Shown here: piece by piece, positions 3,001-64,000 of the stretch | Numbering within the stretch: position 1 is the first letter of the stretch | Layout of the letters: each line of letters opens with the position of its first letter | Assembly (NCBI GenBank): GCA_026874595.1 | Contig: CM049319.1 | Coordinates: 62,814,917 to 62,878,916 of the forward strand | Origin: Sipunculus nudus | Lineage: Eukaryota > Annelida > Sipuncula > Golfingiida > Sipunculidae | DNA: 64,000 nucleotides | Reading direction: 5' to 3' | Made by a program: the position numbers and the translations under genes | Notes under the pieces: model-generated | What the model was told of the DNA's origin: nothing | Databases searched by the model: none | Seen by the model: the letters and a program-made list of their open reading frames with translations, nothing else

Positions 3001-6000
3001 ATGACCCAATATTTACAAACATAGCAGAGCGTGGGCTGGGTGTAACAAATAGCGTGGCGTTTGCTTTATATAGCTTCCCTGCTGCCAGACAAAATGTGCT
3101 TTCTCAAGAGATAATCAATACAGATCTTGCGACTTATTATCTTTCTGACGTGAATCTGCGCAGGTCTGTGCAGCCAAAGCACTTCCAGTAAGACTTCTTG
3201 GCATTATGCCAAACCCTGTGGTTTCATTGTCTGCCACTCGTTTAAATTAAAGCTACGGAAAGAAGCCTAAGAGCACATTTCACCTGGTAAACATCTGATA
3301 ATCAATATATTAAGGCTTGGGAAGCGGCTGTCATATTAGACTGCCTGTCTGCCACTCCAAACCTTGTAGCAATATACAATCTGGTTCTTTACCAAGTCTG
3401 TTTTAACTTCTATTTGTTTTCTTTTTTACCTGTTTGTTTACCTGTGCACAAAACTATCTCACATAAAAATTTTAATTTAAATGAAATTTCCAGTCTGGTC
3501 CATATGTAAGAAAGTGATCATCAAACATTGGAAGATGCTGATCTATATGATGATGCAGTATTCACCTTTCATCAGTAAAACCACAAATGTCTTTCGTAGT
3601 GTATAATATATATAATATAAAAGCTAATTCATAATGGGTATTGATGAAATATTGACCTGATATTGGTTCCGAAGCAAGGATGACCTGATCAAAATTTTGT
3701 ATATAATCAATTTTCAGTTTTCTTTTCAAATCATAAATTTTCCTCAGTGATGGAGAGACTATATATATCATTGATGTTGAGAAATTTTTTGTTGTTGTAA
3801 AAATAGGTATTCTATTTACATGAAGAACAGTAACTATTAAGATTTAAGAGCAAATATTTGTGATTGTGGTTCATTATGTCAAATGCTCTATTACCGCAAA
3901 AGCCCCTTTCTTAAGCAACTGTGGCACAACTGGACCTACAGGCATTTGGCAGCATGCCTTATAGATCAAGTGGTCGGTCCATCAGTATTGATGTGTCTGT
4001 GCTTTCTGGCCTACTAATCTAATTACTCCCTTCACCAGCTCAGCTCTGTCTGTAAACAATCGTTCTCAAGGTGACTCGGTTTGTTCCGGTCGTAACGTCA
4101 ATGTTATGTAGTATGGCAACCTGCCATGGCGGGGTTGCTCTAACGATAACCACAAAAGACTATTCGCTATTTTTTTCACACTGAACTATTTGCTTTTGGC
4201 AACAAGTACGTAAATGCTGCAAAGTATCCATTCCTACCTCGGTAAGGAACCTGTTTTTTCTACGTAACAAAGTATATTCATCAGTCATATGGTTCTTTCA
4301 ACATATGAAAAAGAAATGATCGGGATAGATTTAGTTATAAATTTGATTCTCTGGTAAATCCAAATCCATTCATTATTGAGCTAGTCTTAGCCAAAAATTT
4401 ATTCATTAAAAATCCAAACAAAATTTCACTCATACAGAGGTTAACCTTATACGCAAGTGAAAACAGCACTTCTCCAAATAGATTTGGTAGGATTTATTTT
4501 TGAATTAGCCATAATGAAACAAGCAATTACTATAGCTAACATCATCAAGTTCAATAAACTGGTTACATTAAAGGAAGCCAAGATCAGTCACTCCAAATAA
4601 TTTACACACATCAAAACCACTCTCAGGCAGACACTCCTTTGATTTATTTAATGTGCTTCTACTTCCCACTAAGCTGATGCAGGAAGCTAATATTTCACTA
4701 ATTTGCAGTGTTATTGGACAGTCCCCCCCCCTCCCCATTTACTCTCCAGCATAATCAAGAAAACAAGGAAGTTCTGCTTTTAGTTACTATTGACACAGAA
4801 AGTCAGTTTTTTTAAATTGGTCCAATTGTCTACTGACTGAGGTACTGTGTTTTTACAGATATACAATTAAAAGTATTTTTTAAATAACAATGAGACTAGT
4901 AAATTATTTACTTTTTCTTGCACGGACACAATATACAGTTTTTCTCTATGAGGGCAATTTTCCTGTTTCAGTTGTTAACACAATTTTTTGTTGGTCAAAA
5001 GAATGCAAATGATTTGGTCAAATTATAATATGATGATATAATGTATTGAATTAATTAATATATTTGTTCAGCCTTTACAAACTGCAGAAATAAATCAACC
5101 TCTGGTTCTCACAAAAATAAGAAGAGAGATCAGTACAGACAGCACTTGTGTTTACAAAACAGTCAAATACAAACTTTGTAGTATAGGTTGATGTTGTGAT
5201 CTGTTGTACAACCTGATGAGTTTTGTACATGTATTAATTATAAACCCCTATTCTACTTTCTCTTGTCCTACTCATGGACTTTTTGGAATTACAAAGCAGC
5301 TCCTGCAGGACCCAGACCATGTATTTTTATTACATTCACAAGGTGCTATATGCCAGTTACAGGGCCCCAATGTAAGTCTATCTGATTCAAGCGCCTACTA
5401 TCCTAGTTTCTTAGAAAAAGTGGATGTCTAATCTCTGAATCACCAAGGAAACACCAGCTATTTGTGCCTCCACTTTAGCACTTGCATAAATAAGTTTATA
5501 TATGAACACAGAATGTAAGACTTTACCCTTACTGACAGAATCAACAATCTATGATATCCGAAAAAGAAAGTGGAATACAGCATGAAGGTAGACTTACAAA
5601 TCGTTTTTTTTTTTCAGTTTTTCAGTTTCAGTTTCTCCTGAAAGAAACCTGATCAGGACATATTTGATTTACTGGTCACAGAGCTAGGTGAACTGACTTT
5701 ATTATGCCCCCCCCCCCCCCCAAAAAAAAAAATTTACACTAAGATTTCAGTAACGAAGATCATGAGAATAATCAATAGTGAAACCCTTTTTTTGAACAGT
5801 AACATTATTAAAATGTTGTCTCTCTTGGGCTAAAGAGATGAGAAAATAATTATTAACTGTTCAGGTTACCTATAAAGAAGTTATTATGAATGATGGGGTT
5901 ATGGCAGCCTGCCAGTGCAGCACGGTCACAGACTTACGACCCTGACAGGTGCTTCAAAGTTGGGGGTACTTATAAGTGTAGAGGGGTCATAGACTAAAGG

Positions 6001-12544: not shown

Positions 12545-12719
12545 CTGCCGTTTATTCCATTCACTCATTTCTCTATTCGCAGTCAGAATTGCCGAGTATT
12601 TGTGGATTGGCGCACCCCCCCCCCCCCCCCCCTGCCGTTTATTCCATTCACTCATTTCTCTATTCGCAGTCAGAATTGCCGAGTATTTGTGGATTGGCGC
12701 ACCCCCCCCCCCCCCCCCC
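12545..12719 (+). repeat. 87-bp head-to-tail duplication, each copy ending in C18
   Basis: The segment beginning CTGCCGTTTATTCC at 12545 recurs from 12632 with an 87-base offset and no difference that I can see. Each copy ends in 18 consecutive C residues (12615-12632 and 12702-12719). The apparent identity implies a very recent event or an assembly artefact. Overlapping poly-proline frames here are not genes. Confidence 0.85.
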
Positions 12720-12979: not shown

Positions 12980-13605
12980 CAGTCAAAATTTTGATTTGGA
13001 CCGATGATCGATTATAAATTAATCATTTTATGTTCCTTCGATATTTCTTTGAATTGTGCTGTATAGAATTGTAGCTAACTACTGAGTGTCTATAAAGGCA
13101 CACTTTTACCCGGGTCATATTTTTGTACATAATATTACAAATTTATATAAAGTAAGGTGGCGGGCGTTGGCCTTCCGGAAGGGGGAGGGGGGTGGATCCA
13201 GGGAATATATATATAATTACATATATTTTCATATATATTAGGTATAAGGTACTGGTAGAGTTACCCTCCGTTGTAAACAAGGCTCTAAATTAGAAATCTG
13301 CATTCTGAGAAATGCAAGCCTCCTCCAAATTGGGGGAGGGGGCCTTTTTGTGGGATACTCCCAAAAACCGTGTTTGCATTTACTAATTCGGTCCAAATTC
13401 CCAGGTTTATTCGTGCATAAGGGAATCTACATTTTTAATGTTCCTTGATGACGTTTCTGAAACCGGACCATGATCCGGATCTACAAAAAAAAAATCACAG
13501 TCGATTGACCCGTTCCCGAAATGCCCTGAGACTGTTCATGATTGCATGGCAATCAATGCATTAGTTATTCAGATATTGGAGCTTTTGTACCACATTTTTA
13601 ATTAT
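12980..13605. other. Intergenic DNA with a dispersed repeat fragment
   Basis: No gene was seen. The segment at about 13255-13277 (GTAGAGTTACCCTCCGTTGT) recurs inverted at about 48643-48672, in both cases close to TA-rich sequence, so it is part of a dispersed element. Confidence 0.5.
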
Positions 13606-13858
13606 TCGGGGGCGGGGGGGGGGGTTACTTAAGAGCCCTATAGCTCGGAGGATATAGGCCACAGTGACCTAATTTCAGGTTTCTAAAGAGATTTTTATGG
13701 ACCTCAATGGGTTTTTCAGTTAGAAGTTTCTAGGTTCAGCTGTTACGATTTGTTTCCCGTTAACGGACAGGTGGACGGACGGACCGACAGACGGACGGAC
13801 GACGGACAAAGAGTGATCGCTATAGCTCAGACGACTTTCAGGCAGCTGAGCTAAAAAC
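13606..13858 (+). mobile_element. Truncated Helentron/pearl-like element, 3' half
   Basis: It holds one core-repeat copy: the dispersed 'tagctcggaggatataggccacagtgacct' block, then 'tttctaaagagattttta' and 'tagaagtttctaggttcagctg'. A GGAC/GACGG microsatellite follows at about 13768-13805, then the terminal hairpin at 13824-13852 ending CTAAAAA. The core contains AGGCCACAGTGACCT (13656-13670), one base off the ERE consensus. It begins in a G run, so the 5' end is lost. Confidence 0.65.
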
Positions 13859-14182: not shown

Positions 14183-14190
14183 CAACAACA
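14141..14190 (+). repeat. (TAA)n/(CAA)n microsatellite
   Basis: TAA units change to AAC units immediately before the 5' end of the large Helentron-like element. Confidence 0.9.
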
Positions 14191-17036
14191 AGTCGCCCAC
14201 GGGCCATGACGCTCTTCTAATTTTGACTGGGTCCTCATGTTTTTTTTTTATTTATGTTATATATTGTCTGTGGGAATAGCCTAACGATAAAGTTACAGTG
14301 TTGAAAAAATGGTCAGAAAATAAAAATTTCAGGATTCATAGGAGACCTGCCCTGGATTTCACAATAGAGGGGTCCAAGGATAATGGATACAATTTATGCC
14401 CTGTCTGTCTGGGTGATCAAAATCATGTTTCTGGTCCATAGCTAGCAGAATATAGGTCTCTATGATCCAAATTCAGGTTTCTAAGGAGAATTGCCAAGGA
14501 ATTCCCTGAATGTCATGTTAGGAAAGTCCAGGGCTAATGGATACAATTTGTGCCTTGTATGTATGGGTGCGCAAAACCATTTTTCAGCCCATAGGTCACA
14601 CAATATAGGTCACCATGACCTAATTTCAGGTTCGTAAGTACACTCAACTAGGTACTCCGTGAAATTTAAGTTAAAAGGTTCTACGCCCAATGTATACAAT
14701 TTGTGCCCTGTCTGACTGTATGGGTGCTTTTATGACATATTTTCCTAAAGGTCGCAAAATATAGGTCATGGTGACATAGTTTCAGTTTCCAAGGACACTG
14801 GCCAAGGACGTCTCAGAAGGTTACATTAGAAGATTCTAGGCCTTACCGATACAATGTGTGCCCTGACTGACTGTCTGGGTGTTTATTTGACTTCTTTTTC
14901 TAAAGGTCGCAAAATATAGGTCATGGTGACCCAATTTCAGTTTTCCACAGACATTTGCCCAGGACGTCTCAGAATGTTTTATTAGAAGATTCTAGGCCTA
15001 ACAAATACAAAGTGTGCCCTGCCTGATTTTCTAGTTGCTCAAAATCCTGTTTTCGGCTTGTAGGTCACAAAATGTAGGTCACCATGACCATATTTCAGAA
15101 TTCCGAGGAGATTTGCCAAGGACCTTCCAGTGTGTCGCATTAGAAGATTCTAGGCCTAACAGATATGATTTGTGCAAATCTGAAAATCAGGAGGCTCAAA
15201 ATCATGTTTTCGGCCCGTTGGTGACAAATATAGGTCATCATGACCTAATTTCAGGTTTCCACCGAGATTCGCTTGGAGCCTCCCAGGAAATTGTGTAATA
15301 AGATTCTAGGCCTAACAGATACGATTTGTCACCATCTGACATTCAGGGTGTTCATACGAAATCTTTTTCCTATAGGTGGCAGAATATAGGTCACAGTGAC
15401 CTAATTTCAGGTTCTCAAGTACACTCAACTTGGACCTTCGTGAATTTTATGTTAAAAGATTCTACGCCCATTGGATAGAATTTGTACCCTGTCTGACTGT
15501 ATGGGTGCTTATATGACATCTTTTCCTAAAGGTCCCAAAATATAGGTCATGATGACCTAGTTTCAGTTTCCAAGGACACTTGCCAAGGACGTCTCAGAAG
15601 GTTACATTAGAAGATTCTAGGCCTTACCGATACAATGTGTGCCCTGACTGACTGTCTGGGTGCTTATTTGACTTCTTTTCCTTAAGGTCGCAAAATATAG
15701 GTCATGGTGACCTAATTCCAGTTTTCCACAGACAATTGCCGAGGACGTCTCAGAATGTTTTATTAGAAGATTCTAGGCCTAACAAATACAAAGTGTGCCC
15801 TGCCTGATTTTCTAGGTGCTCAAAATCCTGTTTTCGGCTTGTAGGTCACAAAATGTAGGTCACCATGACCTAATTTCAGGTTTCTGAGGAGATTTGCTTA
15901 GGACCTCCCTAAATGTCACATTGGAGGATTCTAGGCCTTATTGATTCAATTTTTGCCCCATCTGACTGTCTGGATGCTAAAAAACCTTGCATTCGGCCTG
16001 TAGGACATACGATTTAGGTCAACATGACCTAATTTCAGTTTTCAAAAGAGATTTGCCCAGAAACTCCAAGGATATTGTGTAAGAAGATTCTAGGCCTCAC
16101 AGATACAATTTGTCCCCATCTGACATTCAGGGTGCTCATATGACATCTTTTCTTTATAGGTGGCAGAATATAGGCCACAGTGACCTAGTTTCATGTTTCC
16201 AAGGACATTTGCCTAAGATCTCCCAAAATATTATAGGTTAAAGGTTTTTAGGCCTAATGGATACAATTTGGGCCCCTCCTGACTGTCTTGCAGCTCAAAA
16301 TTATGTTTTCGGCCCGTTGGTGACAAATAAAAGTCACCGTGACCTAATTTCGGGTTTCCAGGGAGATTTGCCCAGGACCTCCCTGGATGTATAGTTAGAA
16401 GTTTCTAGGTCTAACGGTTACGATTCGTGCCCTGTTAACGCCCGGACGGCGGACGGGGGGGTACTTTGGGGCCCCATAGCTCAAAGGATATGGATAACAG
16501 AGACCTAATTTCTGGTTTCCAAGGAGATTTTTCATGGACCTCTCAGTGTGTCAAGAATTAAGATTCCAGATCCAGTATTTACGATTTGTGTCTTGTTAAG
16601 AGATGTTCACATTTTTAAAGGTCTCAAAAATAGAGAAAAAAAATCTTAAAAAATCGAAAAATACAGGTGGCGCCACCAGTCCGCAGGACGTGATTGAAAA
16701 TCTCATGATCAATATGTATGCCAAAAATCATGACCATCAGTCAAGTAGTTAATGAGATATTGAAGATTTTGTATGGAATGTTTGACTTTTCTGGGGGTAC
16801 TTTGGGGCCCCATAGTTCAAAGGATATGGGTAACAGAGACCGAATTTCTGGTTTCCAAGGAGATTTTTCATGGACCTCTCAGAATCCCAAGTTACAAGGT
16901 TCTAGGTCCAGCGGTTATGATTTGTGCCTGGTTAACGGACGGACAGACGGATAGACGAACAGACGGACAGATAGACGGACGACGGACAAAGAGTGATCGC
17001 TATAGCTCAGATGACTTTCAGTCAGCTGACCTCAAA
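14191..17036 (+). mobile_element. Full-length non-autonomous Helentron/pearl-like element
   Basis: The 5' end contains CGCCCACGGGCCATGACGCTC, which recurs at 63581 (GGCCCACGGGCCATAACGCTC) followed by the same TTTGACTGGGT sequence. The body is about 14 tandem ~156-bp core repeats (14330-16430), then one longer unit with the GGTGGCGCCACC palindrome (16667-16678), an ACGG-type microsatellite (about 16936-16988) and the terminal hairpin at 17004-17032. The 5' GCTC(AGCTGA) motif and the 3' TCAGCTGA motif are inverted relative to each other, as expected for Helentron subterminal inverted repeats. There is no Rep-helicase frame, so the element is non-autonomous. Short open frames inside (15035, 16718, 16773) are repeat-derived and not genes. 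Confidence 0.65.
14330..16430 (+). repeat. Tandem ~156-bp repeat array with five-monomer higher-order structure
   Basis: The landmark TTCTAGGCCT and its variants recur at about 14367, 14522, 14678, 14833, 14990, 15146, 15303, 15458, 15613, 15770, 15927, 16085, 16242 and 16400, a spacing of 155-158 bases. Neighbouring monomers are diverged, but monomers about 780 bases apart (five units) are much closer; for example the segment near 14676-15030 matches the one near 15456-15810 almost word for word. Seven monomers contain a perfect AGGTCAnnnTGACCT palindrome and others are one base off. Confidence 0.85.
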
Positions 17037-20000
17037 AACTAACCAGAATAATGGTTTCATATTTTGTCTAAATCTAGCTTTTCGTGTTCATGGATCAATT
17101 AAAAGAAATGCATGGTTCATGCTTTGGGTTAAAAAAAAGCGAAACGTTTTCTTCAGTATCGCCATTGCAAAACCATGAAAAGTAGTCAACATGATGTCTT
17201 CTTTCTAGTTCTAGTTAAAAGGTATTCCGGAATATTGGCATGATTCTAATATTTTAGGAAAAAAGAGGATAAATTACCTAAAATGTCAGAATAGATAATA
17301 ATACAGGAGTTCCGTAATTCTTGAAAACTCATATTTTCATTCCTTGTCTTGATAATATATAATATACGTCCCTTTCAAGTGAACTTTAATTTGACCCTTC
17401 GTGTGGAGATGTTATTCACAAGTTACTGTCCATCCATTAAATTGTGGGGAAAAGGAAGTACGATATTAGATACCAGAAAGACAAGTCTTAGTTTTGAACA
17501 ATATATTCCGGAAATCTGTAGTGTGAACTCAGTTCGCTTATCGTGCAGACATGTTAGACAGAGAGAAGTATACTACATCACGCAGCCATGCAGACAAAAA
17601 CCGAAAGCATACCGAGAAAGGGGATATCAATTTAAATTTTGACATAGAATATTGTAACGTGGATTGTATATGCATGGTGCTGTTTGAGACAGCAGGAGTA
17701 TAAACTGATATAAAATGTGCAAAGTATCGACTTATACTTCAGATGCGGGCTTTCTCACAAATATGTATAGCACACGGTGAAGAAAAAGTGATTTAACATT
17801 TATGGTGTACCAAATTTAACTAGGTCAAAAGCGATCATCGACTGAATTTAAAATGAGAAAGATATTTTTTACATACACGGCGACCCTTATATGCATATTA
17901 AAAACTGAAAACACTACAAACCCTTGTTAAAAATATTTGGGATTATCTTTGACGATGACAATCTGGGTTTGATATAAGATTTGACCAATTTTCATGGCCA
18001 GTTGCATGTCACAAAAATAGAAAATTTAAATTGATTTAAAAATGCTGCTGATATGCTTTAAATTTAATCTTTGACCATAAAAACAATGGTCTTAAAAGGG
18101 GCCCAATCACCTATAAAGCATGTTGCACTGACACGAAAAATGACTTCTTCCCTTTAAGATAAATTTGTACCTGCCAAAATATTGCTCTGAAACCGTTTGC
18201 TTATTCCTGTAAAAGAGTGTTAAAAACAGTGGACCGGGCGCGATGTCAGGTGTCAACATAAACACAGAGTGTATCGTCCGGTCACAACACGTGTCAATCA
18301 TGAAATGACCTAACTTTGCCCCAAAATGTAATACATGTTCCTGATGGCTGAAACATGGCGTCTTGTGGCACACAATCGGACCTCCGGTCACGCGGCCTTG
18401 TCATGGTAAACAGACACACGTGGACTGTGCTTACCAACACGCAGAGTCATAACAAGGTCTTAAACAGCCGTGTAAGAGGTACTGAGACTGTGTGCTAGGA
18501 TGGTTTTGCTGGGAAACGTTTGTATAAAGCAAAACTGAATTGAGAGTGTGAAAGGATAGGCATAATATTGCTCCTGAATATGTCCCTTTAATACTATATT
18601 TGACCAATCATCATTGTCAGTTCTTGTGATAATGGAAAAAAATAACCCAGGATAACCGGGTATAAGCTCCTGTCACGTAGTCCATGACCGAAATAGAACT
18701 CTACAGATATACATAGTAATAGTTAAGCAAGAATAAAAAAAATAAAGGCGGTTACCTACACCCCCCCCCCCCCCAAAAAAAAATAATCAGAAATATGAAT
18801 ATTTGCCTGTCCAAGCCTGTTAAACATAAAGTTAGAAGACTTTTTTCTGATATTTGCATATATATTTGGAGACACACTTGCAAAATACTCGCCCATTAGG
18901 GTATAGATTTGAAGAATAACAGACACAAGAAGGTAGCAGTTACTATATATCGCCAATAATGCTAGAATGTGATTTATGATTGAACATATACTTAAATATC
19001 AGAGCATTCCAATGTACGAAGCCTGCAGGGTGAAAGGTTGATATTTTCTTAATTATTATCAATGTTGTTACAGTTAATATATCTTTATGAGTGTGTTTTA
19101 TTTCATTTTTGATACTTGGGATTATTATGGTTATCTGTTGCATTTCCCTTACAAACAAAAGTCGAATGACCAATTGTCGATACTTTATCGATATTTAAAC
19201 ATAGAGAAATTCATTTTTTAAAGGTGAATATGTTAAAACATATTTGTTATTTTCACGTAACAATGTTCCTCATTAAAAGTAAGTCAACAGATGTATACCT
19301 ATCAAACTTAAAAAAAATGCTTCGATTTGACATAAAATATCTGATGTTAGTGAACAAAACCCTCCATTATGAAAATGTGACTTGTTGTAGGTGGTACAAG
19401 ATCTGTGGACAGACGTGCACAGCTTAGCCTATATATTGGTAACAGATAATTCCTATGCTATCCGAATGATACTGTCACAAAAAGTATGCTATTTCCAATT
19501 TTTGGTAAACCCATAAGACATTGCAAAATATTTCTAGTAAAGAGATTTTTCACATGACTTCCACACATTATCTAAGAAATCTCATTAGAAAACCCATTTG
19601 AAATATGGGGTTAATGTTAGCTATTCAGTTTATTAATTCATTCTTCCAGTTCCAGCAGATAAATATTAACAAAAGGAGGATGGTATACATTGAGTCATTT
19701 TTTAATTTGTTGAATACTTATCTTAGGAAGAAATATGCTACGCTTATTAAGTAAGCAGATTTTCTCAACTTATGATCTTGTCAAGCATGTGATATTTTAT
19801 GTTTGCTTATTAGATGATGGGTTTACAATTTGTCCATGATAATGATCATCGGCATAAAAAGGTTTTAAAGATTTACAAAATAATTGGTTTCGTTTTATTT
19901 AGATCAAGCATATGCGCTGTTAAGCCAAAGGTGACCAACCCTGGTTGACTAATGTGGTCACTTACTGATTCATGTTTCTATCAGCATATTTATGGGGTTT

Positions 20001-26000: not shown

Positions 26001-26845
26001 GGACGTATCCAAGATAAATGGGCCGTCGTTGGAACGGTCCCAATAAGACGCTATGTTATATTTGGGGAAACGTCGGACATGGAACCCGTCAGAAGGGATA
26101 GGGAAAAATATCAAACCCGTCCAATTGAGCCCGTCCATCTGGGATGACACCATTAAGTTCATTCAACCACGGTTTACAAGAGGAGCATTTGCCGTAAGGG
26201 GAGCATCGTATATTGGCGACTTGTTAAGCATGATTACAGCGGTTGATGTCTAGACGATAACTGATAGCTCATAACAGGGTATATCTTAAGAAAATCTTAG
26301 AACTGCACAAACCTCTTATTAAAATTAAGCGTTCCCCGTCAGGGTAAAATGTACTAAATAGTTCCCAACTATTATATAAAGTTGTTTAAGGCCAAGAAAC
26401 CAGGGTCATTAGAGACGGAAGCCTCTTACCTTTAAGACTGAAACATTTCCGTTAATCTAATGTTTGTATGTAAAATATGAATATTATGAGTGAACGAGAA
26501 TATAGACAGATGACAAGCGACTACGGGTATCCGCCATATCATAAGTAAGGCATGGGATGTTCCCGACATCACATGACTCCATATGTGTGGCATCAGTGAT
26601 GACAAATAAACCCCTCATATATGGGCAATTTTCACCCCAAAAAATGATCTACAGATGGATAACCCCTACAAAATTTCAGGCCGAGACGCCAATCCAGAGA
26701 AAAAAAGAGCATCAATGTATTCTATAAAAACAGAACAGCAGGTGGCTCCACCGGCCTGGGCTACAACAAAGCTATCCAAGACGGATAAACATTCCAAAAT
26801 TTCAGACCGATACATCTGTTAACTCCTGAGACATGAGCGATTTTT
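17037..26845. other. AT-rich intergenic DNA with microsatellites
   Basis: I found no supportable gene. It contains dC/dG tracts (about 18762-18775, 20130-20210, 20697-20714 and 20977-20990), a GT repeat at about 20874-20898, a TTG/TTA trinucleotide tract at about 24068-24147 and short TA repeats. A GC-richer patch at 18200-18420 holds an open minus-strand frame (18107-18391) with no recognisable features. A CRE palindrome TGACGTCA lies at 23691-23698 and an AATAAA near 23897. A TATA-bearing segment near 25055 is listed separately. About 26560-26845 holds two degenerate copies of a dispersed repeat with 'aaaatttcagaccga'-type sequence that also appears inverted near 47690. Confidence 0.5.
24950..25260 (+). 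promoter_or_regulatory. TATA-containing promoter-like segment, possible solo LTR
   Basis: TATAAATA at about 25051-25058 sits in a locally GC-richer block, with an initiation site expected near 25080. No open frame follows, and the block fades into AT-rich DNA after about 25200. This layout would fit the U3/R part of a solo LTR or a lost promoter. I could not find matching ends or a second copy in the window. Confidence 0.2.
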
Positions 26846-29385
26846 AGCTCAGTTGACTGAAAGTCATCTGAGCTATAGCGATCACTCTTTGTCCGTCGTC
26901 CGTCTGTCCGTCTGTCCGTCCGTTAACCAGGCACAAATCGTAACCGCTGGAACTAGAACCTTGTAACTTGGCATTCTGAGAGGTCCATGAAAAATCTCCT
27001 TGGAAACCAGAAATTAGGTCTCTGTTACCCATATCCTTCGAGCTATGGGGCCCCAAAGTACCCCCCAGAAAAGTCTAAAATTTCATACAAAAACATCAAT
27101 ATCTCATTAACTACATCACTGATGGTCATGATTTTTTGCATACATATTGATCATGAGATGTTCCATCAGTTCCTGCAGACTGGTGGCGCCACCTGTATTT
27201 TTCGATTTTTTTTACGAATTTTTTTCTCTATTTTTGAGACCTTTAAAAATGTGAACATCTGTTAACAAGGCACAAATTGTAAAGACTGGACCTAGAATCT
27301 TCATTCTTGAGACATTGAGAGGTCAATGAAAAAATGTCCATGGAAACCAGAAATTAGGTCTCTGTTACCCATATCCTTCGAGCTATGGGGCCCCGAAGTA
27401 CCCCCCAGAATAGTCAAAAATTTCATACAAAAACTTCAATATCTCATTAACTACATTACTGATGGTCATGATTTTTTGCATGGATATTGATCATGGAGTG
27501 TTTCATCAGTTCTGCAGACTGGTGGCGCCACCTGTATTTTTTCAATTTTTACGAATTTTTTTCTCTATTTTTGAGACCTCTGAAGATGCAGTCATCTGTT
27601 TACAGGGCACAAATCGTAACGACTGGACCTAGAATCTTCTCTCTTGACATGCAGAGAGGCCCATAAAAAGTCTCCTTGGAAACCTGAAATTAGGTCTCTG
27701 TTACCCATAACCTCTGAGCTATGGGGCTCCGAAGTACCCCCCAGAATAATGGAAAATTTGATACAAAGGTTCAAGTAACTGATCAACTATTGCATTGATC
27801 ACCATGATTCTTTGCATTGATTTTGATCATGGGGTGTTTCATCAGTTTCTGCAGACTGGTGGTGCCACCTGTATTTTTTCGATTTTTACGTGTTTTTTTT
27901 TCTCTATTTTTGAGACATTAAAAGATGCGGTCATCGGTTAACAGGGCACAAATCCTAATGACTGGACCTAGAATCGTCTCTCTTGACATGCAGGGAGGCC
28001 CATGAAAAGTCTCCTTGGAAACCTGAAACTAGGTCTCTGTTACCCATAACCTCTGAGCTATGGGGCTCAGAAGTACCCCCCAGAATAATGGAAAATTTGA
28101 TACAAAAGCTCAAATATCTGAACAACTATTGCATTGATCACCATGATTCTTTGTATGGATATTGATCATGGGATGTTTTATCAGTTTCTGCAGTCTGGTG
28201 GCGCCACCTGTATTTTTTCGATTTTTACGAATTATTTTCTCTATTTATGAGACCTTAAGATGGGGTCATCTGTTAACAGGGCACAAATCGTAACGCCTGG
28301 ACCTAGAATCTTCTCTCTTGACATGCAGAGAGGCCCATTAAAATTCTCCTTAGAAACTTAGAAAAAGGTCTCTGTTACCCATTTTCTTCGAGCTATGGGG
28401 CTACCAAGTACCCCCCAGAATGATGGAAAATTTGATACAAAAGCTCAAGTATCTGAAAAACTATTGCAATGATCACCATAATTCTTTGCACGGATATTGA
28501 TCTTGGAATGTTTCATCAGTTTCTGCAGTCTGATGGCGCCACTGGTATTTTTTCGATTTTTACGAATTTTACAGGGCACAAATCGTAATGCCTAGACCTA
28601 GAATCTTCTGTCTTGACATGCAGAGAAGCCTATAAAAAGTTTCCTTGGAAACCTCAAATTAGGTCTCTGTTACCCATATTCTTCGAGCTATTGGGCTCAG
28701 AAGTACCCCCCAGAATAATGGAAAATTTGATACAAAAGCTCAAGTATCTGAACAACCAATGCATTGATCACCATGATTCTTAGCATTGATATTGATCATG
28801 GGGTGTTTCATCAGTTTCTGCAGTCTGGTGGCGCCATCTGTATTTTTTTCAATTTTTAGCTCAGCTGACTGAAAGTCATCTGAGCTATAGCGATCACTCT
28901 TTGTCCGTCGTCCGTCTGTCCGTCCTTTAACCAGGCACAAATCGTAACCACTGGACCTAGAACCTTGTAACTTGGCATTCTGAGAGGTCCATGAAAAATC
29001 TCCTTGGAAACCAGAAATTAGGTCTCTGTTACCCATTCGAGCTATGGGGCCCCAAAGTACCCCCCAGAAAAGTAAAAAATTTCATACAAAAACTTCAATA
29101 TCTCATTAACTACATCACTGATGGTCATGATTTTTTGCATACATATTGATCATGAGATGTTCCATCAGTTCCTACAGACTGGTGGCGCCACCTGTATTTT
29201 TTATTTTTTACGAATTTTTTTCTGTATTTTGAGACCTTTAAAAATACAGACACAATTTTGCCCTGTTGGTTAATCTGTTTGATGCTTCAGTTGAATGGGT
29301 ATATACTACCATTCAGATGAAAAAATTTCCTTTTGCGAATCTCTTCCCAGTCAGCTGAGCGTCATGACCCATGGGTCACTTGTTA
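26846..29385 (-). mobile_element. Helentron/pearl-like element(s), inverted, two 3' ends
   Basis: In minus orientation the 5' end is at about 29385, with the palindrome TGACCCATGGGTCA and then TGACGCTCAGCTGA. The body is ~337-bp tandem repeats. There are two terminal hairpins preceded by the ACGG-type microsatellite, at 28858-28886 and 26846-26874. The copy is therefore either two head-to-tail elements or one element duplicated through its end. Flanking fragments at 29570-29720 carry the GGTGGCGCCA motif in other sequence. The open frames at 26844, 27592 and 28740 are repeat-derived. Confidence 0.6.
26931..29200 (-). repeat. ~337-bp tandem core repeats with GGTGGCGCCACC palindrome
   Basis: The landmark GGCACAAATCGTAA recurs at about 26931, 27267, 27607, 27945, 28280, 28575 and 28935, spacing 335-340 except for one shortened unit of 295 and one of 360 that includes a terminal hairpin. 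Each unit holds a conserved ~100-bp core shared with the 156-bp repeat at 14-16 kb, plus about 180 bases of its own. A perfect 12-bp palindrome GGTGGCGCCACC is present at 27182-27193, 27521-27532, 28197-28208 and 29181-29192, with one-base variants in other units. The ERE-like palindrome of the 156-bp repeat is degraded here to GGTAACAGAGACC. Confidence 0.8.
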
Positions 29386-31912: not shown

Positions 31913-33777
31913 ATTTTAGCTCAGCTGACTGTAAGTCAACTGAGGTATGGGGATGGCGCTTTGTCCGTCGTCCGCCCGGGCGTCCGGCCGTACGTTAGCA
32001 GGGCACAAATCGTAACTGCTGGCCCTAGAAACTTATAAGTGAAATCCAGGGAGGTCAATAAAAAATCTCCTTGGAAACCTGAAATTAGGTCACTGCGACC
32101 TATAACCCCGAGCTATGGGGCTTGAAAGTACCCCCCAGAATAATCAAAAATTTGATACAAAACCTCCAGTATCTTGATAATTAATGCATGGATTGTCATG
32201 AATCTTGCCTTGAATATTGACCATGACTAGTTTTGTCAGTTCCCGAAAAGTGGTATTTTTTTATATTTTAACGAATATTTTGTATTTTTTTAACTATAAA
32301 AAACAACAATTATGTCAGTTTCTCAGCTGTGATTACATCTAGTGTCCCAAAACCTGGTGTGTTTACTGATCACAAGTGGATGCCCCATAGTAATAATCAC
32401 CCTGTCTGTCTGTCTGTCTGTTTTTCTGTCTTTCTGTCTGTCTGTCTGTCCATCCGTCCATCAACACAAATTTTTTTCCAGATGATAACTCAAGGTTGGA
32501 TTGACATATGGATTTCAAACTTGAATTACATATGGCCCACCACTAAAGCAAGAACATATATGATTTTGGGGTCACAAGGTCAAAGGTCAAGGTCACAGGA
32601 CTCCTCACCTAATTAAAAAGATTATGGCTGCATTTTAAGCCAAGCTTTTCACTCAAACTTCCAATCATGCGCATTTAGCTGACTTGCCAGTATGGGGAGA
32701 GCGTAAATGAATTTGGGGTCACATGGGCAAAGGTCAAGGTCACAGGGGCCATCTGTTCACGAATAAGTTTCTAGATGATAACTCCAGTTAAGTTCGACAT
32801 ATTAGTTTCAAACTTAACTTATATATGGCTCACCACTAAAGTAAGAAGCGTGTCGATTTTAGGGTCCAACGGTCAAAGGTCAAGGTCACAGGACTCATTT
32901 CTTTAAAAAGAATGCATATGCATTTGAAGCCAAACTTTTCATCCCAAACCTTCCATCTTGCACATATAGCTGAGCTGCCAATAGGGGAAGAACCTGATTG
33001 ATTTGGGGGTCACAAAATCAAAGGTCATGGTCACAGGGGCCCATCTGTCCACATATTTGTATCTGGGTGATAAATCCTGTTTGGATTGACATAATGGTTT
33101 CAATTTTGACCTACATATGACCCACCAATAATGTAAGAATCCTTTTGATTTTTGGGTCATAAGGCCAAAGGTCAAGGTCACAGTACCCACTTCTTTAAAA
33201 AGATTGTTGATGTACTTTTATCCAAACTTTCTGTCCCAAACCTTCAATCTTCCAGGTGTTGCTCACCTGCCAATAGTGGAAGTAACTTATAGATTTTCGG
33301 GTCACAAGGTCAAAGGTCAAGGTCATGGAGGCCATTTGTCCACATATTAGTTTCCAGATGATAACACCAGTTTGGTTTGAAATATTGATTTCAAACTTGA
33401 CTTATATATAGCCCACAACTAAAGTAAGAACTGTTGATTCTGGGGTCATGAGATCAAAGGTCAAGGTCACAGGACCCACTACTTTAGAAAGATTGTGGAT
33501 GCATTTTAAGCCAAACTTTTCATCTCAATCCTTCCATCATTGACATGTGGTGCATCTGCCAATAGGGGAAGTTTCCTTTTGATTTTGGGGTCACTAGGTC
33601 AAAGGTTACGGTCACAGGGCCCATCCATATACAAATTACTTTATTGATGATAACTCCAGTTTGGGTAGACAGGTTGGCTTCAAACTGATCATAGGACCAA
33701 TATTTTGGAAAACCTCATAAACATATATCCTTATAAACAAATGCTGCTGAGCGTCGAGACCCATGGGTCCCTAGTTT
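31913..33777 (-). mobile_element. Helentron/pearl-like element with nuclear-receptor-type core repeats
   Basis: In minus orientation the 5' end lies at about 33777, with GACCCATGGGTC and then TCGACGCTCAGC. The 3' end is a hairpin at 31918-31946 preceded by an ACGG/CCGG-rich microsatellite and one copy of the common ~100-bp core (31995-32280) that contains AGGTCACTGCGACCT. Between them lie eight ~145-bp repeats unrelated in sequence to the arrays in the other elements, and a CTGT microsatellite (32401-32462). No Rep-helicase frame is present. Confidence 0.6.
32560..33640 (+). repeat. Eight ~145-bp tandem repeats (290-bp dimers) with AGGTCA direct repeats
   Basis: The block GGTCAAAGGTCAAGGTCAC recurs near 32577, 32723, 32865, 33013, 33161, 33303, 33449 and 33593. 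Alternate units resemble each other best: one type continues into ACAGGACTC and 'gcattttaagcca', the other into ACAGGGGCC and 'gatgataactcc'. The array is therefore about four 290-bp dimers. The best copies hold three AGGTCA hexamers, the first two spaced by one base and the third abutting. Confidence 0.8.
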
Positions 33778-41909: not shown

Positions 41910-43904
41910 TCAGGACACCGGAAGTTTCTCCACACTGACCAAGGTCGGCTGGATGTTATCCAGTTTCTTCTTCGTAGCATCAAGCTGTTTATCTCTGTTT
42001 GCCAGTTCTGTCTTTAAGGTGCGAATTTCAAAATTTTTGCGTTTTAATTTTTCGTTCGTCTCTCTTTTCTTCAGGACGTTTGGACTCTTAGGAGCATCGG
42101 GACAACAGCTGTGCTTCCTCCAAGCGGCTACGTCTCTATCAGGGATCTTCTTCAGTTTGATCACAGCCGCTCTGCGCTTTTCGTCATCCAGTTGCTGTCT
42201 GGCCCGATTCAGAGATTCTCTCAGATACTCCGCCTCCTCTGTTTTGTTTCTGATTTCAGTGCCCAGATGCTCTATTTGTGACTTCTGGTGCTCTACCAGT
42301 TGCTCTGCTTGACGTAGCTTGGCTAAATCCCTTTCGTAGTCTTTCAGACGCTCATCTCTCCTCGCGATTCGTTCTTTTAGGATTTTGATTCTACTTTTAA
42401 TTTGTTCACACGCGTGCTCTCTTTCGCTGAACAAATCAGCGCGCTCTCCTTTTGTGATAGTCCCCATGGAACGTAAACCTCCAATTTTCTCCATCTCAAG
42501 GACGTTAGATATCGATCTTAACAGCTCGAGGAAGGAATTTTCACTTAGCTCTAAAGATTCCGTAGTCTCCCGGTGTGCACTGCGTTCAACTTCTGCTTCC
42601 GCTTGACTCTGTGGATCTAATCCCCGAGCTTTGTTCACTTGATGCTCCAATATTGACTGCGAAATATCGTTCTTATCATTCAGAGCCTGACTGGCTTTCA
42701 TTTCAGCGAGTTGCTTTTTAAGCAATACCACCTCATAAACAGAGGAATCCTTGCCTGATGCACCGCTGTGCGTTTGTTCCATGTTTCGGATCTTGTTTCT
42801 CAGCTCAGACAGCGCCTCTCTTTGACGTACAATAATTTGCTCATGCCGATCTCCCCGACACTGGGCTCCCAGTGACGTCAGCTCTGACGTAATACGATCT
42901 CCTTCTTGTAACATATTCAGCTGTTTCTTTGCTTGTTCTTGCTCACCACGAAGTTCTTCCTCAAGAGTTTTTATCTTTGCATCTCTGTCGGCAGCCAATG
43001 ACTTGTATTTAGTCAAGGCGGTTTTATGTTTAGTAAGATCCCTATTCAAATCCTTCACCTCGGTGACTCGCTTTTCTACAGCTTGTGCCATTTTAGATAA
43101 TCGTTGTCTCAATTCCGCCACTTCTTTCTTTTGATCTTGAACAAGCTTCTTATTTTTCTCATACTGTCGTTTTTGGTGTTCCGACAACTCATGTTTTCTG
43201 TCACTCAGCTGGGCGGTAGTTCCTGATAAGTCCTTTCTCAGAATCGTGACCACATCTTGTAAAGTTTGTACTTGCTCCTTATAACCCTTATTCTCCGTTT
43301 TCAGCTGCACGTTTACATGTTCCAATTCCACAATATCAGGAGCTGGGGCCTGGATAATCATCTTTGGCATTGGAGGGCCTTCAAATTTAGGTTGGCTGCT
43401 CAGTTCTGTGACAGTTTTCTTCAATGCACCGACCTCAGCTTGGTAGTCCTTGTTCTTCTTAAGAAGTTTGTCCAGGCGTTCTTCAAGGGCACAGATAGTC
43501 ACCGCGTGCTGCTTGATTTGAGTTTTATACACAGCAATATGTTGTTCTTCTTTCTTACGTATCTCCTCACGTTTTTCACCAATCTCCGATTGATGCTTTG
43601 TCTCAGGTACAGATGTCACTACTGGCGTATTACCAATGGATTCTGGCTGCATCTTCGTTTCACTATTAGTTACAGATGCCTTCACGGTCGTATCATCATC
43701 TGATATTGCAGGTGGCTCCCTCTCGAGCTCAGGCGGTTCCCTATCTTCCATCGTTGCTTCTACCTGTGTCTCGGGTGCAGATTGTATTTTAACCACACCT
43801 ACCGTTGGTTCGGTTTCCTGTTTTTCAACCTCACACTCTTTAACATCCATCTGTTCCTGCTTTGGAGATTCAGGCACCTTATCTGTAGAATCCACCTGTG
43901 ACAT
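41910..43904 (-). CDS. FHAD1-like coiled-coil protein, 664 aa (paralogue 1)
   Basis: The coding region is a single uninterrupted frame from ATG 43904 to TGA 41912-41910. Residues 1-125 are acidic, Pro/Glu/Thr/Val-rich and probably disordered. From about residue 126 to 650 nearly everything is heptad-like coiled coil, with a Pro-rich break near 171-191. Two signature blocks stand out: 339-369 (TSELTSLGAQCRGDRHEQII ... REALSELR), which I associate with FHAD1 family proteins, and 518-585 (RDLAKLRQAEQLVEHQKSQI ... LRESLNRARQQL). A Cys-containing AWRKHSC motif lies near 594-600. There is no FHA domain, unlike full-length FHAD1. A donor CACG|GTGAGT lies about 21 nt after the stop, so a 3'UTR intron is likely; that distance is too short to trigger decay by the usual 50-nt rule. 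The paralogue at 49866-51569 lies upstream in the same orientation. The likely role is structural, possibly cytoskeletal or ciliary, by family analogy only. FHAD1 naming is moderate confidence; the gene itself is secure. Confidence 0.85.
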   Translation of the reverse strand: MSQVDSTDKVPESPKQEQMDVKECEVEKQETEPTVGVVKIQSAPETQVEATMEDREPPELEREPPAISDDDTTVKASVTNSETKMQPESIGNTPVVTSVPETKHQSEIGEKREEIRKKEEQHIAVYKTQIKQHAVTICALEERLDKLLKKNKDYQAEVGALKKTVTELSSQPKFEGPPMPKMIIQAPAPDIVELEHVNVQLKTENKGYKEQVQTLQDVVTILRKDLSGTTAQLSDRKHELSEHQKRQYEKNKKLVQDQKKEVAELRQRLSKMAQAVEKRVTEVKDLNRDLTKHKTALTKYKSLAADRDAKIKTLEEELRGEQEQAKKQLNMLQEGDRITSELTSLGAQCRGDRHEQIIVRQREALSELRNKIRNMEQTHSGASGKDSSVYEVVLLKKQLAEMKASQALNDKNDISQSILEHQVNKARGLDPQSQAEAEVERSAHRETTESLELSENSFLELLRSISNVLEMEKIGGLRSMGTITKGERADLFSEREHACEQIKSRIKILKERIARRDERLKDYERDLAKLRQAEQLVEHQKSQIEHLGTEIRNKTEEAEYLRESLNRARQQLDDEKRRAAVIKLKKIPDRDVAAWRKHSCCPDAPKSPNVLKKRETNEKLKRKNFEIRTLKTELANRDKQLDATKKKLDNIQPTLVSVEKLPVS

Positions 43905-49865: not shown

Positions 49866-51569
49866 CTATGTTACTGGAACAATTGGAAGTTTCTCCACAG
49901 TAACCAATTCAGGCTGTATAATGTCCAGCTTTTTCCTGGTGGCGTCAAGCTGCTTATCCCTGTTTGCTAGCTCTGTTTTTAAGCTGATGATTTCAAAATT
50001 CTTTCGCTTCATCTTCTCTTTTGATTCTTTCTTCCTTATGCAATTAAAACCCATGGGGTCATTAAGTACACAGTTGTGTTTTCTCCAGCCTGTTACGTCC
50101 CCATTTGGAATCTTTTTTAGTTTAATTGCAGCCGCAGTGCGCTTTTCCTCATCTAGCTGCTGCCTCACGCGGTTGAGAGATTCTCTCAAATACTCCGTTT
50201 CTTCGGTTTTGTTTCTAACTTCAGTGCCCAGATGCTCTATTTGTGACTTCTGATGCTCTACCAGTTGCTCCGCTTGGCGCAGCTTGGCCAAATCCCTTTC
50301 ATGATTTTTAAGTCGTTCTTCTCTGTTTGCGATTGACTCTTTTAGGATTCTGAGCTTTCTTTTGATGAGTTCACAGGCCTTCTCCCGTTCACTGTACAGA
50401 CGTGCACGCTCATTTTTCGGGACATGTGCCATTGAACGCAAACCTCCATTTTGATCCATCTCTAAGATACCGGAAACAGCTCTGAGCATTGAGAGGAAGG
50501 AGTTCTCAGTAAGTTCTAAAGATTCTTGAGTTTCCCTGTGCGCAGCGCGCTCGGTCTGGGCCTCCCCTGGTTCTAAACCACGGGCTATGTTCACCTGTTG
50601 TTCTAAAGTGGATATTGATATGGAGTCGTCATTTATTGCATGGTTGGCCCTCAATTCCGCGAGCTCTTTCTTCAGCAGGATCACCATCGCGGAGTCTTGT
50701 TTTGATTGAGGACTAAGGTTCTGTTCCAGTGAGCGGATCTTTGTCCGCAGCTCCGACAGAGCCTCTCTTTGGTTAGAAATTATTTGCTCATGTCTCTCCC
50801 CGCGACACTGAGCACCCAGTGATGTCAACTCTGACGTAATGCGGCCTTCCTCTTGTAAAACTCCAAGCTGTTTCTTCGCGTCTTCTTGTTCAACTTTCAA
50901 CTGCTCCTCCAGTTGCTTAACTTTCGCTTCTCTATCAGCAGCCAATGACTTGTACTTGTTAAAAGCACTTTTATACTTGCCGAGGTCGTCAGTTAGTCCT
51001 TTTGCTTCAGTTTCCCTTTTATCTGCAATTTGGGCCAATTTAGACAACCTCTGCCGGAGTGCCAGCACTTCTTCTTTCTGATCCCGAATAAGCCTTTTAT
51101 TTTTCTCCATCTTCTTTTTCTGACCTTCGTCCATCTCTTTCTTAGCGTCATTGAGTCGGCTGCTGAGACTAGTGATCACATCCTGGAGGCTCTGGACTTG
51201 CTGCTTATAATCCTTATTTTCTGATTTCAGCTGCACGTTAGCTTGTTCCAAATCTAAGGCATCTTGTGCTGGTGATTGTTTAATCGTCTTTGGTTTTGGA
51301 GGAGCTTCGGGTTTGGGTTGTCTGGTAAGTTCTACTACAGCTTTTTTCAACGTACCAACCTCGGCGTGGTAGTCTTTGTTCTTCTGCAGCAGTTTATCGA
51401 GACGTTCTTCCAAGACACAGATAGTAACTACATGTTGCTTGATCTGTTGTTTGTATGATTTTATGTCTCCACCTTCCTTCTGCTGTTTCTTCTCGCTTGG
51501 GTCCCCTTGTTTCTCCATGTGTTCCTTAGTCTGCTCCGACAGATGATCTGTCTTGTCAATATTCGACAT
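49866..51569 (-). CDS. FHAD1-like coiled-coil protein, 567 aa (paralogue 2)
   Basis: One open frame from ATG 51569 to TAG 49868-49866. From residue about 38 it is collinear with paralogue 1: coiled coil at 38-85, a Pro/Lys-rich hinge at 85-101 and coiled coil to about 330. The signature TSELTSLGAQCRGERHEQII...REALSELR lies at 246-275, a second coiled coil at 400-480, WRKHNC at 495-500 and a C-terminal coiled coil at 512-553. The stretch ERDLAKLRQAEQLVEHQKSQ and the following residues to 449 are identical in both paralogues. It lacks the ~90-residue acidic N-terminal extension of paralogue 1 and any FHA domain. A donor ATCT|GTAAGT sits 18 nt past the stop, as in paralogue 1. The naming rests on remembered FHAD1-type motifs and is moderate; generic coiled-coil is the fallback. 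Confidence 0.85.
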   Translation of the reverse strand: MSNIDKTDHLSEQTKEHMEKQGDPSEKKQQKEGGDIKSYKQQIKQHVVTICVLEERLDKLLQKNKDYHAEVGTLKKAVVELTRQPKPEAPPKPKTIKQSPAQDALDLEQANVQLKSENKDYKQQVQSLQDVITSLSSRLNDAKKEMDEGQKKKMEKNKRLIRDQKEEVLALRQRLSKLAQIADKRETEAKGLTDDLGKYKSAFNKYKSLAADREAKVKQLEEQLKVEQEDAKKQLGVLQEEGRITSELTSLGAQCRGERHEQIISNQREALSELRTKIRSLEQNLSPQSKQDSAMVILLKKELAELRANHAINDDSISISTLEQQVNIARGLEPGEAQTERAAHRETQESLELTENSFLSMLRAVSGILEMDQNGGLRSMAHVPKNERARLYSEREKACELIKRKLRILKESIANREERLKNHERDLAKLRQAEQLVEHQKSQIEHLGTEVRNKTEETEYLRESLNRVRQQLDEEKRTAAAIKLKKIPNGDVTGWRKHNCVLNDPMGFNCIRKKESKEKMKRKNFEIISLKTELANRDKQLDATRKKLDIIQPELVTVEKLPIVPVT

Positions 51570-62813: not shown

Positions 62814-63580
62814 AAAGTCATGACGCGTAATGACTGAAATCTAGTGGTATTAATTATATAATTTGCCATGAGTGTTTTAAGCAGATAGTATAATAGCTTA
62901 TTCCAAGTAACTTGTGGTCTCTTTTGCAAAACAGTCAATTTACCTCGATACTGGTGAAGACTCATATTTATATATTGGTTTGAGGCTCAATGGTAAGTTG
63001 GTACACTTACCTTAGGTAATTAGTAGAAAATCTGGCTCGCAACTGAACGGCTCATAACTTGCTTGTTCCATCATTTTTACTTGTTATAATATATAAACTG
63101 ATCTTAACAGATCTGCATCAGCATCCAATACTGTATCATAGATAATGCAATTATTCAAGTGTACGACTAATCTATAAAGGGTTTTTGTTCATTTCTGTTT
63201 TGATGACAACTGGACTGCTGAATGATAATTAGTGGCGTGTTGCCTTTGTTTACTTTGTGGAAATGTTTAATTGGAACGGACTTAATTTTAGAGAAGATCT
63301 GTGTCAAATGTTCTTGATTTCAAGATGTGTTTGTTTTTAATCAATTGAGTAGTTAAAGGTTACCTCTCGGAATACTTGTTCAAAGTCCCGGTATGGAAGA
63401 AAACATGCATAATAAGAATTAATTCAGATATCACAATTTATTAAATTTAATTTATTAGAAATGAATATTTTCAGGAATATCCGTTGGTAAGATCATGAAA
63501 CGTTTGAGAAAAAAAATAAAATTCCTTGTCATCTTTTTTTCTTAATTAGTATACACTGCATGTGAAGCCTTGTCTTAAGC
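62814..63580. other. AT-rich intergenic DNA, no gene seen
   Basis: No coding-like frame, repeat terminus or splice pair was found. Confidence 0.6.
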
Positions 63581-64000
63581 AAGTGGCCCACGGGCCATAA
63601 CGCTCAGCTGAATTTGACTGGGTGCTCATTTCTTTTATTAATGTTATATATTTTCAGTGATAATAGCAGACATGGGGTATTCGTATTCAGTATTCGTATT
63701 CATTGTATTCGATAAAAGGTATTTTCAGTATTTGTATTCGTATTCGAATACATTTGTAAATTCAAATACATTGCAGAAGTATTCACATTCATGAATACTT
63801 TTCATGAATACATGCAGTATACATTAATGTTGTTTACTTTTTATCCTTTATTCATTTGGAAAAATGTGCCATTATTTCAACAGTGATTGATTTTGACCCA
63901 CTTAACACATTCACATTAACAATCTTATTTACACATTTTGACATTTTTTTTCATTTTCATATTAAATTAATATTGATGTGTTTATTTTGTCTTGTGTATG
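63581..64000 (+). mobile_element. 5' end of another Helentron/pearl-like element, cut by window edge
   Basis: AAGTGGCCCACGGGCCATAACG and the following GCTCAGCTGAATTTGACTGGG match the 5' end at 14191. From about 63676 the sequence is dominated by GTATTC/GAATAC units, including inverted copies, that may be this element's own core or a nested repeat. The 3' hairpin would lie beyond the window. Confidence 0.5.

Follow-up and report, generated by a model that had tools for sequence, protein, structure and literature searches.

An estrogen-response-element-type palindrome held in the central satellite of a putative non-autonomous Helentron of Sipunculus nudus

Described Helentron satellites and the element in the window

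The architecture of HINEs, the non-autonomous Helentrons, is described in the available parts of two papers (PMC4067079; PMC7492417). According to the available text of the second (PMC7492417), Cg_HINE of the Pacific oyster shares with the element characterized here a 5' subTIR, a complementary inverted repeat, a microsatellite, a 3' palindrome and, apparently, a 3' subTIR and a T-rich target, and its central satellite-like repeats are mostly 140-180 bp in length, compared to 155-159 bp here. The same text describes no estrogen response element (ERE) or palindrome in each monomer, and the two elements are likened by architecture and not by sequence (PMC7492417). In Helitron-N2_Cgi and N2C_Cgi, a shared 156-bp segment ('Box 3') lies between the microsatellite and the central repeats, like a module found here (PMC8268682, in the part available); in contrast to those elements, the module here has sequence in common with the core monomers and contains either the palindrome or a non-palindromic replacement. 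In the DTC84/pearl elements of clams and oysters, a conserved palindrome is situated close to the junction of the core repeats (PMC5139131, in the available text), and neither of the BIV160 satellite PCR primers taken from that text had a match with 3 or fewer mismatches in the window (the whole 64,000-nt stretch of DNA that was analysed). Literature searches returned no paper joining EREs, satellites and molluscs, no title on EREs in mollusc repeats and, for the box sequence itself, only five papers unrelated by title; one review among the papers listed (PMC12652119) contains the terms. Satovic and Plohl, in 2013, reportedly found ordered variants in DTC84/pearl elements and proposed a hotspot of array-length change. 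We know of no ERE claim for these elements. HINEs with central satellites are already known; the constrained, mass-dispersed ERE box is new.

Seven perfect copies of the IR3 palindrome AGGTCAnnnTGACCT are present in the window, where 0.01 are expected (none of 100 shuffles reached seven), and 14 sites match it with at most one mismatch, compared to a mean of 0.17 expected. A pattern search returned the same seven perfect copies as the original prediction, at 14607..14621 (spacer CCA), 15232..15246 (TCA), 15388..15402 (CAG), 15544..15558 (TGA), 15699..15713 (TGG), 15857..15871 (CCA) and 16016..16030 (ACA), and the monomer steps were measured in the same range of 155-159 bases; these and the following sites are listed without strand. 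The five one-mismatch sites that it had named, at 13656, 14918..14932, 15076..15090, 16172..16186 and 16331..16345, are all correct, but two others (14763..14777 and 32087) had been overlooked, and the 13656 site lies outside the array to which it had been assigned and belongs to an adjacent element, where it is part of a related module. A single repeat family contains all 14 sites. The 13 monomers of the array are mostly 60-75% identical to one another: seven have a perfect palindrome, five have one mismatch and one, the first full monomer, has three (14452..14466). The copy at 15388 reads AGGTCACAGTGACCT, which we take to be the vitellogenin-type ERE core, and its CAG spacer is the commonest among 100 genome places listed. 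The box here would be a constrained part of a transposon and is not known as an enhancer that responds to hormone.

Because the surrounding architecture (5' box, microsatellite, core and 3' palindrome) matches that of HINEs, the array is identified on sequence grounds as the central satellite of a putative HINE. This element lies on the minus strand at ~14189..17038 (5' end ~17038, 3' end ~14189) and consists, in minus-strand order, of a 5' box, the microsatellite TGTCCGTC, a pair of 339-bp-type modules, the array of 13 monomers and the 3' palindrome. T5, the subTIR, the nested inverted repeat CTGAGCT and the TGTCCGTC microsatellite make up its 5' box (16937..17038, minus strand). Similar boxes are found in the window at ~13857 (minus strand) and at 26841 and 28853 (plus strand), each with the subTIR and complementary inverted repeat as AGCTCAG...CTGAGCT; in the array-bearing copy, the first subTIR arm is mutated (GGTCAG). 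The interval from microsatellite to core (16456..16935, minus strand) is occupied by the two 339-bp-type modules, which have the non-palindromic sequences GGGTAACAGAGACCG and GGATAACAGAGACCT at the homologous place. The core array itself (14385..16440, plus strand) has 13 monomers of 155-159 bp in a 5-monomer higher-order pattern, with a partial copy at 14325-14363. At the 3' end (14189..14240, minus strand), the palindrome GCCCGTGGGC is followed by CTTG at a T-rich site; the 5' end of the element bears T5, and its 3' end is followed by TTGTTGTTATT. Relatives of this palindrome are ACCCATGGGT and GGCCCGTGGGCC, and HINE ends recur elsewhere in the window, including a related 3' end at 63580-63667. 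The 3' subTIR of the array-bearing element is decayed, its best match to the 5' subTIR (8/12) not being meaningful. In a relative with its 3' end at ~29382, the subTIR matches the 5' box at 26841 at 12/13 positions and, by eye, the box at 28853 at 13/13.

Approximately 100 bp of each ~156-bp monomer is homologous to the post-microsatellite module, and the palindrome is located inside the conserved box that the two share. In the window, 9/11 copies of this module carry GGGTAACAGAGACCT or a near variant and 2/11 a near-palindrome. Family modules outside the array include the 5' part of the neighbouring HINE (13545..13857, minus strand), with AGGCCACAGTGACCT at 13656, and a further module at 31914..32226 (plus strand), whose site at 32087 reads AGGTCGCAGTGACCT on the minus strand.

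Several other features of the window were recorded. The HINE relative at 26841-29382 carries a 339-bp tandem array built from the post-microsatellite module, with the second 5' box (28853) in the same stretch; this module thus gives tandem arrays of two unit lengths, 339 and 156 bp. An intact HINE 3' palindrome, TGACCCATGGGTCA (29365-29378), consists of two outward-facing GGTCA-type half-sites. A 292-bp tandem array at 32475-33686, a repeat of a different kind, is also rich in nuclear-receptor half-sites, with 16 copies of AGGTCA in one orientation and a single copy in the opposite one; they often form direct repeats (AGGTCAAGGTCA, AGGTCAAAGGTCA). Open frames of 664 and 567 aa, at 41910-43904 and 49866-51569 (minus strand), are apparent coiled-coil paralogues with no Pfam match, and an open frame at 61856-62713 matches the FR47-like acetyltransferase family PF08445 (E-value: 1.4e-07). 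A perfect two-copy 87-bp tandem duplication ending in a long C run (12545-12719) is either recent or an assembly artefact.

Genome-wide dispersal and the non-palindromic sister box

In the 1.4265 Gb assembly, 13,608 perfect palindromes were counted, compared to 93 matches for a reversed control pattern; the genome-wide repeat counts given here are lower bounds. ATAT directly precedes 9,233 of these matches and AATTTC directly follows 6,501 (AGGTCANNNTGACCTAATTTC). Of the first 50 palindromes listed (contig C1), 41 were found to have a family-type flank (right 26, left 36, both 21) and 9 to have neither, and capture-recapture, which assumes independent flanks, places ~45/50 in the family. One of the nine, at 2470743, is ~90 bases from a core anchor. 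Most perfect palindromes of the genome seem to be located in relatives of the array-bearing element. Pattern scans of viral and prokaryote contigs gave no match.

The right flank AATTTCAGGTTTCCAAGGAGA is present at 4,923 genome places. Among 77 distinct copies sampled with this flank, the palindrome is perfect in 7 and GGGTAACAGAGACCT is present in 16, so the ERE is a state of some lineages and not of the whole family. A sister box, GGTAACAGAGACCTAATTTC, has 30,387 exact genome copies, versus 6,501 for AGGTCANNNTGACCTAATTTC. The two forms were compared among LF-type modules, grouped by position 10 (a column therefore fixed by construction), with 29/472 tied modules and 5/164 LF modules having neither T nor A at that position left out. 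For the sister group (A at position 10, n = 87), conservation was 0.930 in the half-site columns, 0.969 in the spacer and 0.868 in the rest; for the IR3 group (T at position 10, n = 72), the corresponding values were 0.893, 0.662 and 0.790. With position 10 excluded, the half-site values were 0.924 and 0.884, respectively. The sister group conserves all 15 box positions, whereas the IR3 group leaves the spacer free. As both groups conserve the box, this site is of importance to each lineage, in a different form in each, and as the sister box is commoner and about equally conserved, the palindrome is dispensable for the family taken as a whole.

Half-site conservation and its timing

Array monomers were sampled using the anchor TTAGAAGATTCTAGGCCTAAC, which lies outside the palindrome and occurs at 492 places; 50 loci were taken and 45 gave monomers. 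The retention and distance tests used loci L079-L128, which are free of palindrome-based ascertainment. The 301 full monomers from the 45 loci include 136 with both half-sites intact and 90 with one mismatch. Modal-base retention was 0.926 in the half-sites, 0.657 in the spacer and 0.826 in the rest of the monomer, as anticipated by the original statement that the half-sites stay intact while the spacers vary, and the palindrome ranked first in retention of 140 test windows with 6+3+6 geometry. When the 13 monomers of the window were analyzed, the palindrome was first in conservation and first of 141 test windows in half-site versus spacer contrast; by estimated site rate it was first or second, tied with the test window one column to the left. 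A separate half-site rate gave an improvement of 5.9 lnL over a model in which the half-sites share a rate with the rest. The two half-sites are held to a similar degree and the spacer changes fastest; conservation reaches beyond the palindrome, into AATTTCAGG on one side. Equally fast decay of the palindrome and the adjoining repeat sequence had been named as the refuting outcome, but on the genome copies such an equal rate was not found, the half-sites decaying more slowly.

In a test that treated all windows alike, the half-site/rest ratio for the closest pairs was 1.03 at the palindrome, compared to a mean of 1.60 in 97 windows (1/97 lower), and at larger distances it was 0.75 and 0.49, compared to means of 1.26 and 1.00; the far-to-close contrast of the palindrome was not extreme (9/97 windows lower). 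Neutral decay after insertion was considered on the basis of close-pair ratios of 1.32, 0.90 and 0.91 (at <8%, 8-12% and 12-16% divergence) and rejected, as that test is biased because the pairs were picked for small divergence in the rest of the monomer. The three closest higher-order pairs in the window, which share this selection bias, differ at 3/36 half-site versus 29/424 other positions.

Trees of 279 modules were built with the tested window left out and compared with 27 control windows. This set includes loci found via the palindrome or its right flank (L001-L008 by the palindrome plus AATTTC, L009-L078 by the right flank), which are also in the LF and pairing sets. Half-site changes on internal branches numbered 11, compared to 65 ± 26 in the controls (none lower), and those on terminal branches 174, compared to 253 ± 50 (3/27 lower), a depletion of ~5-fold and 1.5-fold, respectively. 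When a second window was also removed, the counts (mean of 8) were 172 terminal and 13 internal. The 8 control windows with terminal counts of 163-215 had internal counts of 16-65. Depletion is milder in the right flank AATTTCAGG (206 terminal, 28 internal changes), and a block ~60 bp upstream (163 terminal, 16 internal) is nearly the same as the palindrome, which is the strongest case of internal-branch depletion and not the sole one. Altered half-sites occur in single copies and rarely found lineages, which suggests that the constraint acts on the spreading element. Because the depletion is far greater on internal than on terminal branches, a reading of retention for the host is not supported, and the pattern is that expected of constraint on a propagating element; the terminal branches, somewhat depleted too, may include time before insertion. 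The 'selection or biased maintenance' originally suggested is supported in so far as half-sites are kept and spacers vary. An appearance of constraint could also arise through gene conversion that favours the common form.

Among the 279 core modules, the commonest spacer class recorded is CCA (132), while TGG, its reverse complement, is third commonest (38) and differs from it at all three bases. Nearest pairs with different spacers were CCA/CTA (13), CAA/CCA (5), CCA/TGG (4), CCA/TCA (2), CCA/CCG (2) and ACA/CCA (2). Inversion of the palindrome centre (CCA to TGG) is possible.

Candidate readers of the box and significance

The explanation that we favour, with a probability of roughly 0.55, is that the array forms the central satellite of a HINE and that the IR3 box is kept because copies with altered half-sites seldom give rise to new lineages. 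By analogy, half-sites that are held around a free spacer form the pattern that would be left by a protein with two half-site contacts. The box would be a sequence-specific recognition site with two half-sites and an uncontacted spacer, used during amplification of the element or the array, and its reader could be a host or a Helentron protein. The host estrogen receptor (ER) would be one candidate reader and not the default. As exchange boundaries between monomers are compatible with a position in this box, it may also be a junction at which the array changes in length.

A second account, which we consider improbable, is neutral inheritance with homogenisation: an ancestral palindrome would be kept alike by unequal exchange or gene conversion, with exchange favouring the conserved box. 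The palindrome copies in the array are not all independent, as shown by the 5-monomer higher-order pattern (m3/m8 94%, m4/m9 96% and m5/m10 87% identical), with a recent block duplication from m2-m5 to m7-m10 and an older one from m6-m7 to m11-m12. When a common phase was imposed on the four exchange boundaries, the fit put them at +9 to +14 relative to the start of the palindrome (2-lnL set), inside the right half-site; fitted singly, they had wide intervals, the best fit of one lying 58 columns beyond that start, and no sharp phase was found in unit coherence (0.828-0.848, highest from the palindrome rightwards). Homogenisation is favoured by this higher-order duplication, with boundaries compatible with the box, and by the extension of the conserved block beyond the palindrome. 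However, an exchange tract should also cover the spacer, yet the spacer is the fastest part, and the LF-type IR3 modules (n = 72), which presumably lie outside arrays, show the same kind of contrast between half-sites and spacer. Boundaries in the right half-site fit the proposal for DTC84 that a junction palindrome drives change in array length (PMC5139131, in the available text). Identical boundaries would result if exchange prefers conserved sequence.

It also appears unlikely that the ER of this animal, or a different receptor, binds the IR3 boxes, aiding amplification in receptor-expressing cells (such as those of the gonad) and scattering EREs. The box is an exact consensus ERE with a free 3-bp spacer, the T at position 4 is the base of the half-site that changes least often (0.027 per half-site), and in gel shifts the ER of a gastropod bound GGTCAnnnTGACC with no ligand present (PMC3778743, in the part available). 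In the same part of this paper, the snail ERR is apparently without ERE binding, which argues against a receptor, and EREs in mollusc genomes are described as unknown (PMC3778743). The sister lineage, moreover, thrives without the palindrome. Receptors tolerate RGKTCA half-sites, but the half-site changes here are mostly transitions (124/219), and G3 changes to T in only 6/35 cases. The exact pattern that we take to be the ER P-box had no match in the genome, although an intron could split it, as receptor genes are often split near there (matches 2-25 and 24-70). A zf-C4 profile gave 67 genome matches, counted per exon; of six first-finger stretches inspected among these, one (CEACKAFFKRTIQG) is presumably ERR-like, and none of the six has an ER P-box.

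The original suggestion of a receptor sink or of spread regulatory sites is counted against by the commoner sister box, by the 7/77 share of perfect copies and by the conservation reaching into AATTTCAGG. We regard it as quite unlikely that an ER-type protein binds the IR3 boxes in amplification, spread being limited in this way to lineages whose half-sites are intact, and that the genome thus came to have >13,000 perfect EREs. If this were true, the EREs of this genome would act as a receptor sink and would also supply potential regulatory sites that are independent of hormone. On sequence, the box is of ERE type, and an estrogen receptor is only a candidate reader of it.

Among 1,655 base-pair cells, 198 had changed on one side and 8 on both, with 5 of the latter still complementary compared to 2.7 by chance, and 4 of 12 two-sided changes in a second set (301 monomers) were complementary. 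With no clear excess of compensated pairs, it is base identity that is held and not a hairpin. Although the palindrome is an inverted repeat whose 3-nt loop is free to vary, and the clam element DTC84 has a conserved palindrome near the repeat junction (PMC5139131, in the available text), a hairpin or cruciform kept for rolling-circle replication or recombination is very improbable given the lack of a clear compensatory excess, the two-sided counts being small.

Under the favoured reading, that of a box kept because altered copies seldom found new lineages, this element is a test case for constraint on a non-coding satellite: the box is kept in spreading lineages, and the non-palindromic sister is a natural control. 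Most perfect EREs of this genome appear to be in one transposon family, and any ERE census or ER ChIP must account for that.
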